34,260 bases of DNA from Minisyncoccota bacterium (GTDB taxonomy: Bacteria; Patescibacteriota; Minisyncoccia; Phycocordibacterales; GCA-2747955): assembly GCA_020629435.1 (NCBI GenBank), contig JAHDDI010000009.1, positions 1 through 34,260 on the forward strand, in the 5' to 3' direction. The translations under genes and the position numbers were made by a program. Every line of letters begins with the position of its first letter. Within the stretch, counting starts at the first letter, position 1. The notes below the pieces were generated by a model. That model was not told the DNA's origin. It ran no database searches and saw only the letters and a program-made list of their open reading frames with translations. Shown piece after piece: positions 18,847 through 33,994 of the stretch.

Positions 18847-19254
18847 ATGTCCAAAAAAAACCAAAATGAGAGCTATTCGATTGATACTCTGATTGATAAA
18901 TGTCTTGAATCAGAGAGAAACGCGCACGACGTTTACATAACGATTAATGACGAGTACTCCGAAACACATGATTATGTTGGGCTTGTGACCTTTGTCACTA
19001 GAACAAGAATCGGGGCTTGGTTTAAAGACCAGATAACAGGTGAGTGCATCTTTTTGTCTAACTTGATACACGATCACCAGGGTGGTGTTGACTGGAAAGT
19101 TATCACAAACGAGGCCGAAGCAGCCAATGCAATTGCTTGTGTTAAAGCTTGGCACAAGAAATGGCTTCCAGTCGATAGTGCATTATTCGAAAATGCAGCG
19201 GGGCTTGAAACACTGAGAATGTTCGACTCAGAATCGAGACGAAGACAAACGTAG
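18847..19254 (+). CDS. Hypothetical protein
   Basis: A 135-residue soluble protein that I do not recognise. Notable are an N-terminal helix with DTLIDKCLESERNAHDVY, a beta-rich centre (DYVGLVTFVTRTRIGAWFKD) and a Trp-containing helical end (VKAWHKKWLPVD). The central strands could be a small barrel domain, but no family is claimed. Unlike core genes it has a strong Shine-Dalgarno sequence and less AT-rich codon use. It converges on 19396-19752 with a hairpin cluster between them. Stop is TAG. Confidence 0.75.
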   Translation: MSKKNQNESYSIDTLIDKCLESERNAHDVYITINDEYSETHDYVGLVTFVTRTRIGAWFKDQITGECIFLSNLIHDHQGGVDWKVITNEAEAANAIACVKAWHKKWLPVDSALFENAAGLETLRMFDSESRRRQT

Positions 19255-24313: not shown

Positions 24314-24640
24314 ATGGTTGCAGCGCACAAGTCATCAATCTATGACGACTGCGAAATTGAGAATAATTACCCCTGTGTTGACGGTATACACAGAGACGCA
24401 CTAATTATGCCCGGGCACTTGTTTTTAGATCATGATTCTACTCATGACTCACACCATCAACTTCATGACTATTTTGCTGAAATGAGATACTGCTTGTTCT
24501 GGTACAGTCAGATTAAGTTTCCACACCAGCCAAATGTTAATGTTGCCCAATGGAGATTCGAACATCATAAAATTTGGTTCAAAGATGGTGATGACCCAGC
24601 ACAAAAAGCGAAAGATTATGTTCGGTCTCACTCTTTATAG
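24314..24640 (+). CDS. Hypothetical His/Asp-rich protein
   Basis: A 108-residue soluble protein, rich in His, Asp, Trp and Tyr; the stretch LDHDSTHDSHHQLHDYFAEM (about 38-57) could bind metal ions. I recognise no family. It is preceded by AGGAG (24303-24307) 6 bases before the ATG, and by a consensus-like promoter, and is followed by a strong terminator, so it is a single-gene unit. Stop is TAG. Confidence 0.7.
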   Translation: MVAAHKSSIYDDCEIENNYPCVDGIHRDALIMPGHLFLDHDSTHDSHHQLHDYFAEMRYCLFWYSQIKFPHQPNVNVAQWRFEHHKIWFKDGDDPAQKAKDYVRSHSL

Positions 24641-24711: not shown

Positions 24712-25488
24712 CTAGACAATCAGCTTAGATTTAAATCCAAGTATATTAGTATACCTATTATTTCCGAACAGTATTGGATAAAAGTCTTCTCGAGAGTAGA
24801 CATTCTCACCAGATTCACTGGTACATACTATTTGACCTTTCTTACATAAACTAAAATTCTCCATAGCAGCATCTAGTGTGTAGCCTCCCACAAAATCCTT
24901 TTCAAAAGCTGCATAGACATCGTAGATTTTTGTTTTTTTATAAATCCTAGGATTACTATAAGGATTATTTTTTATGATCCCACTGAAAATTAGTATTTCA
25001 ACAATATCAAATAACGTTGCCTGTAAAACATCGTGACTATCATCCATTCCGTATTCAAATGCGATCCCAGCCTTTGCTGCTGATATCAATGCATTATCAG
25101 ATTTGTATTTCATTAATAATACTTTTGGGGGCTTAATAGTGTCTATAATCTCTTGAGTCTCAGAATTAATTTTTGTCACTATCAACATGGAATCATCTCC
25201 CAAGTCAGTTGTTTTTGTAGAATGCACGTCTATAACAATATCAAAATCTTCTATAATAGACTGCAGTTGGTCCGCTCTTCGTTCCTCATAATTACCGTCT
25301 TTCTTACCTGGAAATATTCTATTGAGATCACTCTCTAGATATGGAATATTCTTTTCAGAGGCCATAGGGTTACCTATCTCTAAACGTAAAGAGGTCTTAT
25401 CTATTTTTAGCTTAACAAGCTCCTCTATCACCTTCAGGCCAATACGTTCGTGTCCATGTGTTGACGCTACAACAAGTACTTTTTTCAT
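24712..25488 (-). CDS. AstE/AspA family zinc hydrolase (M14-like)
   Basis: The succinylglutamate desuccinylase/aspartoacylase family removes acyl groups from amino acids or related amides with one zinc ion. Zinc and substrate residues are visible: HGHE (11-14; His11 and Glu14), DLNR (54-57), DVHS (87-90; His89 as third ligand) and Glu145 in AFEYG as likely general base. At 258 residues it is shorter than AstE (~320). With no arginine degradation genes nearby, the substrate is unknown. Start follows TATAAT by 7 bases. Stop is TAG. Confidence 0.83.
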   Translation of the reverse strand: MKKVLVVASTHGHERIGLKVIEELVKLKIDKTSLRLEIGNPMASEKNIPYLESDLNRIFPGKKDGNYEERRADQLQSIIEDFDIVIDVHSTKTTDLGDDSMLIVTKINSETQEIIDTIKPPKVLLMKYKSDNALISAAKAGIAFEYGMDDSHDVLQATLFDIVEILIFSGIIKNNPYSNPRIYKKTKIYDVYAAFEKDFVGGYTLDAAMENFSLCKKGQIVCTSESGENVYSREDFYPILFGNNRYTNILGFKSKLIV

Positions 25489-25518: not shown

Positions 25519-25547
25519 AAAAAGGCCCTCGAATGAATCCGAGGGCC
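25519..25547 (-). terminator. Terminator of the trpS operon
   Basis: CGAGGGCC/GGCCCTCG form an 8-bp GC-only stem except one AT pair, with five T following on the - strand. It sits just downstream of the GNAT gene. Confidence 0.87.
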
Positions 25548-25552
25548 CCTAG

Positions 25553-26254
25553 TTATCTGCGCCAAACACAATACGCAGCATCGCCATTATCTTGATCAAG
25601 ACTGGCAAAGTTTGTGCCAATGCTTTTCTTGACGATGTCGTAGTCGCGTCCATACATCGATGAACCGTATACCCCTCTTGAAACAAGAGTGGTGGGATCG
25701 AGATGTGTATCGTCTATGACATTTGCAATACATGTAGCAGCATTTTGGACATCCTGCGGTATCTCTTTGTCACCGAAAAGGAACAAGTCTTTGGTCCCCG
25801 TCACTTTTGCAAAGCATTTCTGCATTACTGGGTTCTGAGTACGAAGAACCATGTGAGACCATTCTGAAGCGTGCTCACTGGAATGATCGACAACATACCT
25901 GAGCATTGAAGTTCCCACTCCTTTGCCCTGCGAATGCTTGTCAACGCACATTCCCGCCAGGTAGATAACAGAACTATCGCCCATAGGTATTCTGTCCCAC
26001 ATACGAAACGCCCTTGGATTCCCCGAGAGGTCACTCAAGACCACCACATCAGAATTCATCATAACGTGATCGTATACATCTTGATGAAACTCAGGATTAT
26101 CCTTCTGATTGAACGCACTACGAGCGATAGGATACAGCTCCTCAATGAGTTCATCTTTGGACTTGTCGTCGAGTTTTTGTGGGCACAAGTGATGCCCAAC
26201 AAAGTTTTTATTGCCTCCTACTTCACAGGAGACGGTTAAATCTCTCCATGGCAT
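25553..26254 (-). CDS. GNAT family N-acetyltransferase
   Basis: Transfers an acyl group from acetyl-CoA (or a related donor) to an amine. The acetyl-CoA pyrophosphate loop is SQGKGVGTSML (108-118), after the strand VIYLAGMCV (96-104), which is the usual motif A. The C-terminal ~75 residues (with CIANVID and SSMYGRDYDIV) do not match the common fold and may form the acceptor pocket. The substrate is unknown. A strong Shine-Dalgarno AAGGAG lies at the end of the upstream gene, 5 bases away. It is the last gene of the trpS operon. Stop is TAA. Confidence 0.82.
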   Translation of the reverse strand: MPWRDLTVSCEVGGNKNFVGHHLCPQKLDDKSKDELIEELYPIARSAFNQKDNPEFHQDVYDHVMMNSDVVVLSDLSGNPRAFRMWDRIPMGDSSVIYLAGMCVDKHSQGKGVGTSMLRYVVDHSSEHASEWSHMVLRTQNPVMQKCFAKVTGTKDLFLFGDKEIPQDVQNAATCIANVIDDTHLDPTTLVSRGVYGSSMYGRDYDIVKKSIGTNFASLDQDNGDAAYCVWRR

Positions 26255-26259
26255 TGGAC

Positions 26260-27363
26260 TTACTCCTTCTTGCCTGTTACGAGCAGATATGCTCCTTGGT
26301 TAGTGTCAGAAAGAGTTCTATCAATTTCCGAAATCTTTTTGGTTACAGTGGTATTTTTTAAGATAACCCTTGGAACCAAAGAAGACACAACGGGATAGGA
26401 ATTCTTTCCTTCGATGACAAGACCTTTTGGAACCATGTCATCTATTTGCTGCAAAGAATATGGTGTTGCGTGTATGCGGTAGGTTTTGCCTGCCACCTTC
26501 ACGTTAAGACACTCTTCATCAACGTCGATGAATGCTGCCCAACCATTGTGCACCGGAACATATGATGACTCATACATCAATGCCTCAGAATTGTGAAAAG
26601 AGAGAACGAAACGCCCACCTGGACGCAGAACTCTCTGCACTTCTCGGAACAAGTTCTCTGCTGAAGACAGATTACTTGCAGAACCAAGACCCATCACAAT
26701 CATCGAGGCGCTTTCATCTTCCAAGGGAATACCCTCGTCCAAATCTGCTACCTCGAATTTTCCTTTTGGAAACTGACCTTGTGCTGCAGCAATCATGTCG
26801 GGACTAATGTCGTACCCGCGCACAACATCGAACTTAGGAGACAGCCATGGGAAAATATTTCCCTTGCCACACCCTAAGTCGACTGCTACACCGGCAACCT
26901 CTACCCTTGAGACCACTTCCTGAATAACCTCACCTTCATACACAGCATAGTCGGCTGTTGCGGGATATTCAGCAAAGCGCAGCTGATGATCTGTTGCACT
27001 TACCACTTTAGCAAGTTCCAAAAGATTCTTTTTGCACCATTTCAAACGCTCTTCTGCGTCTTGTGGTTGAACAACCGAATCTCCTGATTGGAGCTGGATC
27101 ATCTGCTGTTTGCATGATTCACCAATCAAGGCGTAGAGCATGCTTTCAGCGAAATTCGGACTCAGGTCGATGCTTTCGGCAAAGACCCTTATCTCTGCGA
27201 TCCTATCGTCTTCAATCTCGCTCCTGAAGATAGGGTCACCCGTTGTCTGCTTGGATGCTCCCACCAGAAGTGCAAGCTCCATTCTCTTTCGCGCTAGACG
27301 CATTATTTCGAGGTCGACACCCTTGAGTCTCGTCCCCAAGATGGATAAATTTAGCTGTGGCAT
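26260..27363 (-). CDS. Chorismate-mutase-like domain fused to a SAM methyltransferase
   Basis: A two-domain, 367-residue protein. Residues 1-92 look like an AroQ-type (type II) chorismate mutase: Arg12, a VDLEIMRL helix, Arg27 in ARKRMELALLVG, Lys38, acidic 49/51, and Ser83 with Gln87 at the end of the third helix follow the order of the enzyme's active residues; Arg12 is about two residues out of register, so activity is uncertain. Residues ~140-290 are a class I methyltransferase with VDLGCGKGN (161-169), YDISPDM (184-190) and VLRPGGRFVLSFHN. This suggests methylation of a shikimate-related compound; that is inference. AAGGAAAAG precedes the ATG. trpS lies 13 bases upstream. Stop is TAA. 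Confidence 0.68.
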   Translation of the reverse strand: MPQLNLSILGTRLKGVDLEIMRLARKRMELALLVGASKQTTGDPIFRSEIEDDRIAEIRVFAESIDLSPNFAESMLYALIGESCKQQMIQLQSGDSVVQPQDAEERLKWCKKNLLELAKVVSATDHQLRFAEYPATADYAVYEGEVIQEVVSRVEVAGVAVDLGCGKGNIFPWLSPKFDVVRGYDISPDMIAAAQGQFPKGKFEVADLDEGIPLEDESASMIVMGLGSASNLSSAENLFREVQRVLRPGGRFVLSFHNSEALMYESSYVPVHNGWAAFIDVDEECLNVKVAGKTYRIHATPYSLQQIDDMVPKGLVIEGKNSYPVVSSLVPRVILKNTTVTKKISEIDRTLSDTNQGAYLLVTGKKE

Positions 27364-27376
27364 TTTCTTTTCCTTT

Positions 27377-28378
27377 TCAGTAAGTTACGATTCCCATTTT
27401 ATCAGAAACCAACCCGATAGTGGGCATAATGATTTGACGGGCCTTTTTTCCTCCCTCATGAAGGATTTCCCGAACCATTTCGTCTTTATCTTCGAACGAG
27501 GCTCTGCGTTCTTGAAACAATTCAAGCTGATCACTGATGCGGTCAGCAAGTAAACCCTTGCACTGTGCACAACCAATTTCAGCGGCCATGCACTTTTTTG
27601 CAATTGTTCGAGATTGTACTTCACCTGGTGAAACAAGTTCGTGGACAGGATAGACTGACAAGCAGTCTTCGTATGGGTTACCTGGATCGCTGACCGAAAC
27701 ACGATTTGCATCGGTTACACCGAATCTTCTATACCGATCATGAACCTCTTCCCTTTCCATTGTCAACGAAATAGCGTTATCGGCGTCTGACTTCCCCATT
27801 TTATTTCCATCAAGGCCGGGAACCTTTACCATTTCTTCCAACATTTCAGGGATAACGAAAGTCTCACCGAAACGCTTGTTGAATTTTCGCGCTAGCTTTT
27901 GGGCTAGCTCAACGTTTGGAATTTGGTCACTGCCCACAGGTACGATGTTTGCCTGTGGACCCAAAATATCTGCCGCCATCAAAACTGGATAGCTAAACAA
28001 ACCATGGGTTACCCTGTTTGGGTTCTTTTTGACCAAGTCCTTGTAGGTGGGAATATTCTTAAGCGCACCGAACGACTGCAGCATCCCCAAATACATCGAG
28101 AGCTGCGCAATCTCCGGAATACTCGACTGAGCATACAAGATCGACTTGTCCGGGTCTAAACCCGCAGCAAGGTAATCTTTTACCATTTCGGTCAAGTTTA
28201 GTTTCATTGCTTCGGGATCGTCGAGGGTGGTCAGTGTGTGGAAGTCAGCAACAAAATACATACAACGTGTGTCTGCATCGTCTTGAAACTTCACAAAATT
28301 CTGAACAGCCCCAAGGAAACTACCGAAGTGAAGTCTACCTGTTGCTCGGATACCCGAGAGTACTGTCTTACTATGCAT
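27377..28378 (-). CDS. trpS: Tryptophanyl-tRNA synthetase
   Basis: Charges tRNA-Trp; class I. HFGSFLGA (17-24) replaces the HIGH box, PVLMAADIL and VPVGSDQ are conserved, and KMGKS (193-197) is the KMSKS loop. There is a CAQCKG motif near the C-terminus. The 333 residues are normal. Unlike the other synthetase genes in the window (proS, cysS) it has a -35, a leader of about 50 bases and a Shine-Dalgarno AAAGGA, and its TGA stop is the only one I find in the window. Whether it is the sole trpS copy cannot be judged from here. Confidence 0.95.
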   Translation of the reverse strand: MHSKTVLSGIRATGRLHFGSFLGAVQNFVKFQDDADTRCMYFVADFHTLTTLDDPEAMKLNLTEMVKDYLAAGLDPDKSILYAQSSIPEIAQLSMYLGMLQSFGALKNIPTYKDLVKKNPNRVTHGLFSYPVLMAADILGPQANIVPVGSDQIPNVELAQKLARKFNKRFGETFVIPEMLEEMVKVPGLDGNKMGKSDADNAISLTMEREEVHDRYRRFGVTDANRVSVSDPGNPYEDCLSVYPVHELVSPGEVQSRTIAKKCMAAEIGCAQCKGLLADRISDQLELFQERRASFEDKDEMVREILHEGGKKARQIIMPTIGLVSDKMGIVTY

Positions 28379-28431
28379 GTTCTTGTCCTTTGTGTTTGCG
28401 TTGTAAAGAGCATAAATATCTCTTAAAATTA

Positions 28432-28459
28432 ACTATAAACTGAATAATTTTATTGTCAA
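28432..28459 (-). promoter_or_regulatory. Promoter of the trpS operon, -35 and -10
   Basis: A perfect TTGACA (28459-28454) and TATAGT (28437-28432) are 16 bases apart (positions of the -10 could be off by one). The -35 touches the stop codon of the neighbouring methyltransferase-like gene. Confidence 0.75.
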
Positions 28460-28460
28460 A

Positions 28461-29348
28461 CTATCCTCTTGTTAGTTTTTGCAGAACTCTTTTTTGTTTA
28501 TCCACACTTAGGTTACCGAACGTGTTATTGATTATTGTTGTTACATTAGAAATTCCTTTGTTCGGACAAATACTCACCACCAACGAACGGCCTTTTTCAT
28601 ACTGCTTTATGAAATATTTTTCCTCTGAGAAAAAAGACTTCGCCAGATTAAACAAAAAATCTTTTCGATACCAGCATGAGGAAAAAATAGTGTCCCCATT
28701 ATCATCTTCACTTAGAACCATCACTCCGTTTTTCTGTTTATTGCAAATATCCAAAAATGTTTTTTTATTTTCATCTTTGTTTTTTTGGTACTCTTCAATA
28801 CTGCACGACCAGAGCACTTTATCTTCTGAAAGAGAATCCTCGTCACTAAAATCAAGCGCGTGTATCTTAAAAGCACTCCCTAGTTTATTACTTTGCATGT
28901 ACATATCTAATGCAGAGTACTCTGAGCTATCCTGTGGTGCGAGACTGTCGATGTTGTATACACCAAGCATTAAACATCCTGGTTCATTTGGATTCGTATC
29001 AATCGCCTCTTCGATATCTCCCGTGAATGTCGAACAGTCAGAGAGTGGAAATTTATTCTTTATATTTCTTTCTGCAAGAACCACCATCTCCGACGAAATG
29101 TCATTAAAAAAAATACTTTCCACCTCTACTTTCATATTTGTAAGAGTCTCAATTAAAAAAATTGGGTCTCGTAGCCCTGTTGCTCCTCCATAAGTTGTCA
29201 CGTTTAATTTATCACCAGACAACCACAGCTCCTCACATATGTCACTCAATATATCTAGTTCACCTTCATTATCAGTGAGGGATGCCTCATCATAAATACC
29301 TGCTCTTTCATCCCAAAAGTTTTTAATTTTTTTTTGATCAATTTTCAT
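28461..29348 (-). CDS. Diverged SAM-dependent methyltransferase-like protein
   Basis: A 295-residue protein. The N-terminal IKNFWDERAGIYDEA is a typical opening of class I methyltransferases. Motif I reads TYGGATGLRDP (52-62) where DxGxGxG is usual, and the acidic residue after strand 2 is in FFNDISSEM (80-88). The binding loop is unusual, so the assignment is tentative. The C-terminal part has YRKDFLFNLAKSFFSEE, resembling the substrate-handling helices of such enzymes. ATG 29348 is chosen because TATAAT ends exactly 6 bases before it. Stop is TAG. Confidence 0.6.
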   Translation of the reverse strand: MKIDQKKIKNFWDERAGIYDEASLTDNEGELDILSDICEELWLSGDKLNVTTYGGATGLRDPIFLIETLTNMKVEVESIFFNDISSEMVVLAERNIKNKFPLSDCSTFTGDIEEAIDTNPNEPGCLMLGVYNIDSLAPQDSSEYSALDMYMQSNKLGSAFKIHALDFSDEDSLSEDKVLWSCSIEEYQKNKDENKKTFLDICNKQKNGVMVLSEDDNGDTIFSSCWYRKDFLFNLAKSFFSEEKYFIKQYEKGRSLVVSICPNKGISNVTTIINNTFGNLSVDKQKRVLQKLTRG

Positions 29349-31960: not shown

Positions 31961-33994
31961 TTATTTCGACTTTTCAATTTGTACTTGCAAATAGTTTATT
32001 TCATCGCGCAAGACTGCTGCTGTTTCAAAATCCAATTCTGCTACCGCTAGTTCCATTTCTTTTTGCTTTTTCTTAACAAATTTTTCTGGATTCTTTTCGA
32101 AATCTGATTTTTCAGCAGACAGTGCAGCCATTACGGTCTTTTTGTGTTTTGATTCTATTTCGTTGGTAATGTCTTTGATGTTCTTTGCAATTGTCTTGGG
32201 TGTGATTCCGTGTTTTTTGTTGTATGCCAACTGTGTGTCGCGGCGTCGCTGTGTCTCATCCATGGCACGCTTCATGGAATCAGTAATCCTGTCAGCATAC
32301 AATATTACACGTCCATTTTCATTACGTGCTGCACGTCCAATTGTCTGCACCAAGGCCGTTTCACTACGCAAGAATCCTTCTTTGTCAGCGTCCAAAATAC
32401 CAATCAACTCTACTTCGGGCATATCCAGGCCTTCTCGTAACAAGTTCACTCCCACTAGAACATCATATTTCCCTGCTCTAAAGTCAGATATGATGGCAAT
32501 GCGATCTAGAGTGTCTACTTCGCTGTGCAGATATACTGCCTTTATATCTTTGTCTTTTAAAAATTCAGATAAATCCTCTGCCATTTTCTTGGTCAGAGTT
32601 GTTGCCAACACTCGAGCATCTCGTGCAATTATTTTTTCTGCTTCGGCAATAAAATCAAATACCTGTCCTGGATATTTTCCTTTTTCAATAACTGGTCGCA
32701 CAACAATCACCGGATCAACAAGCCCTGTTGGGCGAATGATTTGCTCTGCAACATTTTGTTGGTTGGCGGCCTCGAACCGGCTAGGTGTAGCAGAGACCAT
32801 CACCATTTGCCCGACTCGGTCCTGAAATTCTTCAAACTGCAGTGGTCTATTATCGCGTGCCGACGGCAGTCGGAACCCATGGTCAACCAAGTTTTGTTTT
32901 CGTGACCTGTCTGCGTTATACATCCCACCAATTTGCGGTAATGTCATGTGTGATTCATCAATAAAACAAAGAAAATCGGGGTTACCGTGTTCGTCTTTTG
33001 GAAAATATGACAACAGAGTGTCCGGCGCTTCTCCTTGTTGTTTTCCTGACAGATGTCTCGAATAGTTCTCTACTCCTTGGCAAAATCCAATTTCTCGCAA
33101 TAGTGCCAGGTCTTGGCGTGTTCTACGCTCTAGGCGTTGCGCCTCAAGCAGTTTATTTTCTTTTTCAAAATAGGCCAATTGTTCTTCTAGTTCGTTTTCA
33201 ATTTTTGTAATTGCCAATTCTAATTTTTCGGGAGCAGTTACAAAGTGTTTTGCTGGAAACAAAAATACTGTTGGCACCTCTTCTTGAATCTGTCGTGTAA
33301 CTGGGTCGACCACAAGAACCGCTTGAACATGTCCTGCTTGCACTTCGATACGAAATACAATCTCTTCATTAACAGGCATGATTTCAATCACGGGGCCAAC
33401 CACACGAAACATTCCTGGTTCCAAGTCAGCGGTGGTTCGTTTGTACTGGATTTCTATCAAATGTTTTAGAAACTCAGACCTGTTGTGTTTGTCACCTACC
33501 GAAATCGGCATGTGTACTTTTTTGTATTGTTCAGGACTACCTAAACCATAGATACAAGACACAGACGCAACGATTATCACATCTTTGCGGGTCAGCAGTG
33601 ACTGAGTAGACGCATGACGTAGCATGTCAATTTCTTTATTAATTGTTGCTTCTTTTTCTATAAACGTGTCTGATGCAACCACGTATGCCTCTGGTTGGTA
33701 GTAGTCATAATATGACACAAAATAATGCACAGCATTATCGGGGAAAAATGTTCTAAATTCTTGGGCTAATTGTGCTGCCAGTGTTTTGTTATGGGCGATT
33801 ACCAACGTTGGTTTTTGACGGTCAGCAATAATATTTGCCATGGTAAATGTCTTACCAGTCCCTGTAGCGCCATGCAGTGTCTGGTAACGCAGGTTGTTGT
33901 CTAGTCCGTCAACAATAGATGCAATAGCGGTTCCCTGGTCACCAGCGGGTTTATAGTCACCAAATAGTTTAAATTGTTGCTCTGTCTTTTTCAT
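31961..33994 (-). CDS. uvrB: Excinuclease ABC subunit B
   Basis: DNA helicase-like damage verifier of nucleotide excision repair that receives DNA from UvrA and recruits UvrC. Walker A is GATGTGKT (42-49), the damage-probing beta-hairpin region is YYDYYQPEAYV (95-105), helicase motifs continue with IDESH, VSATPSR, and GVNLLREGLDMPEVE with IGRAARN, and a C-terminal UVR motif (about 640-675) contacts UvrC. The 677 residues are complete. Stop is TAA. Confidence 0.98.
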   Translation of the reverse strand: MKKTEQQFKLFGDYKPAGDQGTAIASIVDGLDNNLRYQTLHGATGTGKTFTMANIIADRQKPTLVIAHNKTLAAQLAQEFRTFFPDNAVHYFVSYYDYYQPEAYVVASDTFIEKEATINKEIDMLRHASTQSLLTRKDVIIVASVSCIYGLGSPEQYKKVHMPISVGDKHNRSEFLKHLIEIQYKRTTADLEPGMFRVVGPVIEIMPVNEEIVFRIEVQAGHVQAVLVVDPVTRQIQEEVPTVFLFPAKHFVTAPEKLELAITKIENELEEQLAYFEKENKLLEAQRLERRTRQDLALLREIGFCQGVENYSRHLSGKQQGEAPDTLLSYFPKDEHGNPDFLCFIDESHMTLPQIGGMYNADRSRKQNLVDHGFRLPSARDNRPLQFEEFQDRVGQMVMVSATPSRFEAANQQNVAEQIIRPTGLVDPVIVVRPVIEKGKYPGQVFDFIAEAEKIIARDARVLATTLTKKMAEDLSEFLKDKDIKAVYLHSEVDTLDRIAIISDFRAGKYDVLVGVNLLREGLDMPEVELIGILDADKEGFLRSETALVQTIGRAARNENGRVILYADRITDSMKRAMDETQRRRDTQLAYNKKHGITPKTIAKNIKDITNEIESKHKKTVMAALSAEKSDFEKNPEKFVKKKQKEMELAVAELDFETAAVLRDEINYLQVQIEKSK

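Follow-up and report, generated by a model that had tools for sequence, protein, structure and literature searches.

The question raised by this locus is whether three adjacent minus-strand genes of a Minisyncoccota bacterium, encoding a tryptophanyl-tRNA synthetase (TrpRS), a fusion of a chorismate-mutase-like domain to a methyltransferase (CM-MT) and a GNAT-like acyltransferase, were acquired together and serve one pathway. The genes occupy positions 25519-28459 of a stretch of 34,260 nucleotides (assembly GCA_020629435.1, contig JAHDDI010000009.1, positions 1 to 34,260, forward strand), which is called the window below; its own genome is G000. An earlier note on this DNA had proposed a transferred unit between native leaderless genes, directed to a tryptophan- or chorismate-related compound. 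The unit is very probably a transferred, tryptophan-linked cassette. That it forms the core of a modular cassette for an aromatic small molecule, circulating horizontally among Patescibacteria and coupled to the charging state of tRNA-Trp, is in our estimate evenly balanced. The genes, their linkage, the phylogeny and the RNA elements described below were established from sequence. Genomes, contigs and loci carry G, C and L numbers.

A probably transferred unit with a second tryptophanyl-tRNA synthetase

The unit is complete, with its own promoter and its own terminator (Table 1), as the earlier note had read it, and is compact: the genes are 13 and 5 bases apart, and Shine-Dalgarno (SD) sites lie within or beside the 3' end of the gene before. 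Its promoter scored best, although promoter-like sites over the whole region were no more numerous than in shuffled sequence. The GC profile confirmed the suspected richer composition: GC was 0.457-0.465 in the three unit genes versus 0.384 in the flanks, and GC at third codon positions was 0.457-0.466 versus mostly 0.26-0.43 in other genes. An SD-like site was found for 7 of the 40 window genes, including all three of the unit (others are at 18847, 19396 and 24314, with 16407 doubtful), while a -10 match 4-13 nt upstream of the start was found for 18 of the 40, which are mostly leaderless. The single TGA stop among the 40 genes is indeed that of trpS.

The synthetase encoded by the unit (TrpRS2, gene trpS2) satisfied the bacterial TrpRS model TIGR00233 with 256.1 bits (cut-off 176.75), and variants, HFGS and KMGKS, stand in place of the HIGH and KMSKS motifs. 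D137 and Q152, which we take to be the counterparts of Bst D132 and Q147 in the Trp pocket, are unchanged in all alignment rows. Four cysteines align with those of the T. maritima TrpRS 2g36 (Fe-S type, C-x22-C-x6-C-x2-C), the first spacing being 23 in the window. The motif AADILGP is diagnostic: it is present in 10/10 TrpRS2 rows, and the housekeeping enzymes deviate from it at G and P.

A second trpS, the presence of which the earlier note had proposed to check, was found in G000 at C4:6147-7100; it encodes the housekeeping TrpRS, 34% identical to TrpRS2 of the window. Housekeeping and cassette genes occur together in G000, G180, G380, G382, G384, G385, G408 and G440, and in all genomes with TrpRS2 the housekeeping copy is 32-42% and the cassette copy 49-63% identical to TrpRS2 of the window. 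Two cassette copies each were found in G385 and G408. One of those in G408 (L093:11854-13257, minus strand, 467 aa) carries an N-terminal zinc-ribbon fusion and lies beside the second; the housekeeping gene is about 8 kb from the fused one, so that three trpS genes lie inside 12 kb.

Maximum-likelihood analysis of 30 rows placed the ten TrpRS2 of the cassettes in one clade (100/99), separate from all housekeeping TrpRS. Between distant hosts, percent identity of TrpRS2 was far above that of the housekeeping enzymes (G380/G408, 77 vs 38; G384/G380, 74 vs 35; G408/G440, 71 vs 34), which argues for transfer rather than vertical descent, although some closer pairs show no such excess (G384/G382, 63 vs 69). 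The clade, the identity excess, the contrast in composition and the patchy distribution together support transfer within Patescibacteria. An origin outside Patescibacteria is unsupported, since every close TrpRS2 relative found belongs to Patescibacteria; one CM-MT lies in a Nitrospinota-labelled contig. Of the protein trees proposed as a check in the earlier note, that of TrpRS2 was informative and that of CM-MT lacked resolution.

Distribution and recurring partner genes

Scanning of genome contigs with CM-MT returned six relatives (five Patescibacteria metagenome-assembled genomes and one Nitrospinota-labelled contig) and one Bacillus match to the methyltransferase domain. Of 197 genomes from the order of the window, 5 carry CM-MT, as do 2 of the 380 in a phylum sample, every match in a different family, and it was absent from three further members of the family to which the window belongs. 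G459 and G382 are apparently the same genome (identical coordinates), and the CM-MT frames of L012 and L016, interrupted as deposited, were used as separate pieces. TrpRS2 lies beside or near CM-MT in the window, L004/L062 (G180), L011, L013, L015, L016, L061 and L084. The contigs of L014 and L012 stop close to CM-MT, and their genomes hold one trpS only (36% and 42% identical). The trpS2/CM-MT pair recurs, and the third gene does not: no relative of the GNAT was found in the other cassette loci examined, so a place for it as a conserved pathway member is unsupported.

Several further genes recur in these loci. AstE/aspartoacylase-like hydrolases were found in the window, L011, L014, L015, L016, L062, L082 and L084; amidoligase/GCS2-like ligases in L015, L016, L062 and L084 (44-49% identical among loci); TrpD-like Glycos_transf_3 proteins in L011, L083 and L093; BtpA in L011, L082 and L083; and PPDK_N/PEP-utilizer proteins in L013, L014 and L061. 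Zinc ribbons are encoded in L011, L013, L016 and L062, besides the fusion in L093, and that of L062 showed no detectable relation to that of L013. In L061 (Kaiserbacteria), two matches fell below threshold, one indoleamine-2,3-dioxygenase (IDO)-like (23.5 bits, cut-off 26) at L061:9954-10967(-) and one prephenate-dehydrogenase-like (25.9 bits, cut-off 26.5) at L061:6873-7673(+). Neither the GNAT nor the IDO-like protein has a sequence relative in the PDB.

Transfer might have brought together an extra trpS and metabolic genes unrelated to it, without any common pathway, given that each gene belongs to a common superfamily, that the GNAT was found in the window only and that accessory content differs among loci. 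This is very unlikely in view of one divergent TrpRS2 clade standing beside a rare CM-MT fusion in far-apart lineages, with recurring partners and RNA elements. The earlier idea of a tryptophan- or chorismate-related pathway gains support from the trpS2/CM-MT linkage, the amidoligase, AstE, TrpD-like and PPDK-like partners, and the tRNA-Trp genes and probable Trp T-boxes of relatives.

A phage or plasmid vector was considered and rejected: matches there to CM-MT were to the methyltransferase domain only (in viral contigs they were confined to it), no TrpRS2 above about 39% identity was among the matches listed, and no amidoligase was found on plasmids.

tRNA-Trp genes and T-box leaders in related cassettes

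A gene for tRNA-Trp(CCA) with G73 was detected by ARAGORN inside cassettes L013, L015, L062 and L093. The charged tRNA itself may be a substrate, with TrpRS2 and the cassette tRNA-Trp supplying a tryptophanyl group that is moved (perhaps, in the window, by its GNAT) to a CM-MT-derived acceptor and AstE trimming the result. Besides the tRNA genes, the zinc ribbon that is fused to TrpRS2 in G408 and lies beside it in L011, L013 and L062 is consistent with such a use, as is the fact that GNAT-fold transferases use aminoacyl-tRNA in natural-product pathways (PMC12945691). The known transferases of that kind, however, have two GNAT domains (PMC12945691), whereas the GNAT of the window has 233 aa, gave a single match and is not conserved. 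Genome G420 lacks TrpRS2, and T-box control would induce the operons when Trp-tRNA is scarce, which would be odd for a consumer of Trp-tRNA. This use of Trp-tRNA is considered rather unlikely.

Eight T-box leaders with a common Stem I type were found in these genomes, seven of them before cassette enzyme genes, namely amidoligase (G440, G384 and G385:C35), PPDK-like (G385:C45 and G382), TrpD-like (G380) and LMWPc/TrpD-like (G408:C2) genes. Rfam matches in the relatives had E-values of 4e-10 to 0.02, all under the gathering score; of 14 control genomes, 6 gave matches and only 2 passed the gathering cut-off. A Stem I hairpin with the 3' bulge [A/G]UUGG is common to 8/8 T-boxes, and a ninth element (G385:C45) has the bulge GUUCG. 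Over the nine elements, 62 of 63 cells of the lower Stem I were paired, with up to five pair types per position, compared with 21-34 when slid; the register had been picked for maximal pairing, a choice that works in favour of the unslid arrangement. Downstream of each T-box come a hairpin resembling a terminator and a run of U. The T-box motif has UGGC in three and UGGU in five, and a competing terminator and a Stem I specifier are present. The more parsimonious reading of the specifier is UGG (Trp), because the three UGGC elements fit G73, whereas UUG (Leu, A73) would clash with these three; the five UGGU elements require a G-U wobble with G73 for the Trp reading. Ordinary T-boxes in the same genomes, before genes that we take to be serS, aspS and ileS, match the discriminators presumed for their tRNAs. 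Those of the window genome lie at G000:C13:5710-5918 (L129), before serS, and G000:C4:8213-8360 (L135), before aspS; that before ileS is in G384:C7. The eighth leader of the common Stem I type (G408:C35:7580-7779, L136) precedes a zinc-ribbon open reading frame and a membrane protein, and this region is possibly another part of the cassette.

T-box riboswitches are best known from amino-acid operons of Firmicutes and Actinobacteria. The elements of the relatives share with these the T-box sequence, the competing terminator and the Stem I specifier, and differ in their Patescibacteria hosts, their short Stem I, their place before amidoligase, PPDK-like or TrpD-like genes and their absence from the unit of the window. 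The literature searched contained no paper tying T-boxes to Patescibacteria or the candidate phyla radiation.

Genes under T-box control are switched on by uncharged tRNA, which, with the probable Trp specifier, would suit relief of tryptophan starvation: Trp or a substitute would be salvaged (AstE deacylating N-acyl amino acids, TrpD-like and BtpA proteins acting on indole or anthranilate precursors), and TrpRS2 with tRNA-Trp would raise charging. The hosts lack chorismate synthase and are thus unable to make chorismate, the Trp precursor, which would also fit. Against this, the set includes amidoligase, PPDK-like proteins, methyltransferases and a weak match to IDO (a family that degrades Trp), none of which is a salvage enzyme; in the loci read, no T-box immediately precedes TrpRS2; and the distribution is very patchy. 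Starvation relief is judged quite improbable.

The CM-MT fusion protein

The N-terminal domain of CM-MT matched Pfam CM_2 with 43.5 bits (cut-off 27; E 3.7e-11), and its profile matched 1ECM at E 2.6e-13. The C-terminal domain matched Methyltransf_11 (E 9.9e-16; Foldseek E 2e-13) and has the S-adenosylmethionine (SAM) motif DLGCGKG. The ether- and carboxylate-binding residues of AroQ chorismate mutase include R28, K39, E52 and Q88 of the E. coli enzyme (CM); their counterparts are invariant in 11/11 CM domains, and that of S84 is kept in most. The predicted structure had a mean predicted local distance difference test (pLDDT) of 76.5, lower in the CM domain, and its nearest PDB entries, separated by small score gaps, were small-molecule methyltransferases, including C-methyltransferases of natural-product pathways. 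Chorismate synthase was found in 0/10 Patescibacteria hosts, and in 14/14 controls and G381 (Nitrospinota); G000 is 86% complete. The substrate of CM-MT would thus be scavenged or be another compound. Two other assignments were rejected: CmoA, the carboxy-SAM synthase that uses prephenate, was absent among the family and structure matches listed for the methyltransferase domain, and the sole match bearing on anti-phage defence was that of the methyltransferase domain to mad2.

Proposed function and comparison with known systems

For the class of product, the role of TrpRS2 and the direction of regulation, the following scheme is proposed. CM-MT would bind a chorismate-like compound, presumably scavenged by hosts lacking chorismate synthase, and methylate either this compound or its rearrangement product. 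A variable module (amidoligase and AstE, TrpD-like and BtpA, or PPDK-like and phosphatase) would complete the molecule. TrpRS2 would serve as a dedicated second Trp-charging enzyme that sustains Trp-tRNA under limitation or inhibition of the housekeeping TrpRS, the inhibitor most likely being the cassette product itself; this self-protection, already raised in the earlier note, is a tentative assignment that we place slightly short of even. In the relatives, low Trp-tRNA would switch on the T-box operons, and in the window a plain promoter would take the place of T-box control; the window cassette is a reduced, promoter-controlled form with an extra GNAT.

Several points weigh against this scheme. 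Near the unit of the window there is no T-box and no gene for tRNA-Trp, and the window genome lacks the amidoligase. The top T-box score was 58.1 bits versus a gathering score of 93 bits. G420 has CM-MT, BtpA and the TrpD-like protein without TrpRS2, so TrpRS2 is not obligatory for the cassette, and in G408 CM-MT and TrpRS2 are on separate contigs. Across the 11 CM rows, R11 gives way to other residues (most rows have an Arg two positions further along), Arg mostly stands in place of D48, and Ile, Val or Lys mostly in place of R51; chorismate is therefore uncertain as the substrate, and CM-MT is not classed as a proven chorismate mutase. The cassette has no known product, and self-resistance leaves the tRNA-Trp genes unexplained. 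One could imagine a mobile, orthogonal-like TrpRS2/tRNA-Trp pair devoted to secondary metabolism in bacteria unable to make chorismate: T-boxes would sense Trp-tRNA shortage, and the building block or substitute would be either the charged tRNA-Trp of the cassette or a Trp analogue that derives from chorismate and is charged by TrpRS2. We regard this as decidedly improbable.

Extra aminoacyl-tRNA synthetase (aaRS) copies act as resistance enzymes in clusters, as with AcmD and SbzA (PMC12945691). The ascamycin (AcmD/AcmF), SB-203208 (SbzA) and indolmycin-type TrpRS resistance systems resemble the cassette in having an extra synthetase for the same amino acid beside biosynthetic enzymes and a housekeeping copy elsewhere (PMC12945691). 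The gene arrangement of a self-resistant-aaRS cluster was found here, with a distinct-clade extra aaRS, conserved biosynthetic neighbours and a housekeeping copy elsewhere. Unlike the AcmD and SbzA clusters, the cassette has a Patescibacteria host, the CM-MT fusion and, in relatives, tRNA-Trp and T-box control. Operons of TrpRS-A, tRNA-Trp(A73) and ORF1 have been described in candidate phyla radiation bacteria and DPANN archaea (PMC5370408); they share with the cassette an additional TrpRS with a tRNA-Trp gene, candidate-phyla hosts and a suspected link to Trp availability (PMC5370408). TrpRS-A is an archaeal-type enzyme and its tRNA has A73, whereas TrpRS2 is a bacterial-type enzyme (TIGR00233) and the tRNAs of the cassettes carry G73; no ORF1 was observed, and the cassette includes CM-MT and biosynthetic genes. 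Like PheA, TyrA and PchB, CM-MT has an N-terminal AroQ-type helical domain retaining R28, K39, E52 and Q88; it differs in that a SAM methyltransferase takes the place of the dehydratase or dehydrogenase, in that R11, D48 and R51 are not retained, and in that its hosts are without chorismate synthase.

Patescibacteria are thought to be poor in specialised metabolites and reliant on other cells for amino acids. If correct, the cassette would add to this group a biosynthetic system not described before, namely a transferred pathway linked to Trp-tRNA and built on a fusion of a CM-like domain to a methyltransferase. It would also establish T-box control in Patescibacteria and offer an aaRS-linked lead toward new tryptophanyl-tRNA synthetase inhibitors.

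Features of the unit and flanking genes

Table 1. Coordinates of the unit and its immediate neighbours in the window
Feature	Position	Strand	Basis or remark
MT2, possible SAM-methyltransferase-like protein, no known family, leaderless	28461..29348	-	upstream of trpS
sigma70-type promoter of the unit, TTGACA-16-TATAGT	28432..28459	-	11/12 matches, top site of scan
SD site of trpS2, AAAGGA	28386..28391	-	sequence
trpS2, second tryptophanyl-tRNA synthetase, 333 aa, TGA stop	27377..28378	-	TIGR00233; Fe-S Cys motif; AADILGP signature; HFGS and KMGKS
SD site of CM-MT, AAGGA, inside the 13-nt gap past the trpS stop	27371..27375	-	sequence
CM-MT, 367 aa; AroQ (chorismate-mutase type II)-like domain about 1-90, class I SAM methyltransferase about 120-367	26260..27363	-	Pfam, 1ECM comparison, structure model
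SD site of GNAT, AAGGAG, immediately 5' of the CM-MT stop codon	26263..26268	-	sequence
GNAT-like acyltransferase, 233 aa, window-specific accessory gene	25553..26254	-	Pfam Acetyltransf_1 E 8.8e-6, over cut-off
Intrinsic terminator hairpin closing the unit, U5 run at end	25521..25550	-	-20.7 kcal/mol, z -4.83, 0/200 shuffles equal it
AstE/aspartoacylase-like hydrolase, 258 aa, leaderless, AT-rich, past the terminator	24712..25488	-	Pfam AstE_AspA_cat E 1.3e-15

The two genes next to the unit had been taken as native. Their composition and starts do look native, yet both are related to cassette genes elsewhere, so the functional unit probably extends beyond 25519-28459. Relatives of the AstE-like protein lie near CM-MT in L015 (42%), L062 (33%) and L084 (30%), with more distant ones in L011, L014 and L016. 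The short AstE genes of L015 and L084 are as AT-rich as that of the window, so composition does not rule the latter out, and it is probably a cassette member. MT2 gave no Pfam or NCBIfam match, its profile comparison with CM-MT was not significant, and its single-sequence structure model (pLDDT 34.6) was too low for use. It is 25% identical (E 9e-22) to the product of the gene that immediately precedes CM-MT in G408 (L082 2654-3655), and is a possible cassette member.

Just past the AstE-like gene, an open reading frame of 108 aa lies at 24314-24640 on the plus strand; it has an SD site and gave no match in Pfam. A uvrB gene is found a few kilobases from the cassette both in the window (31961-33994) and in GWA2_40_14 (L015:1531-3669), the two being 59% identical, which possibly reflects a shared insertion neighbourhood or coincidence.

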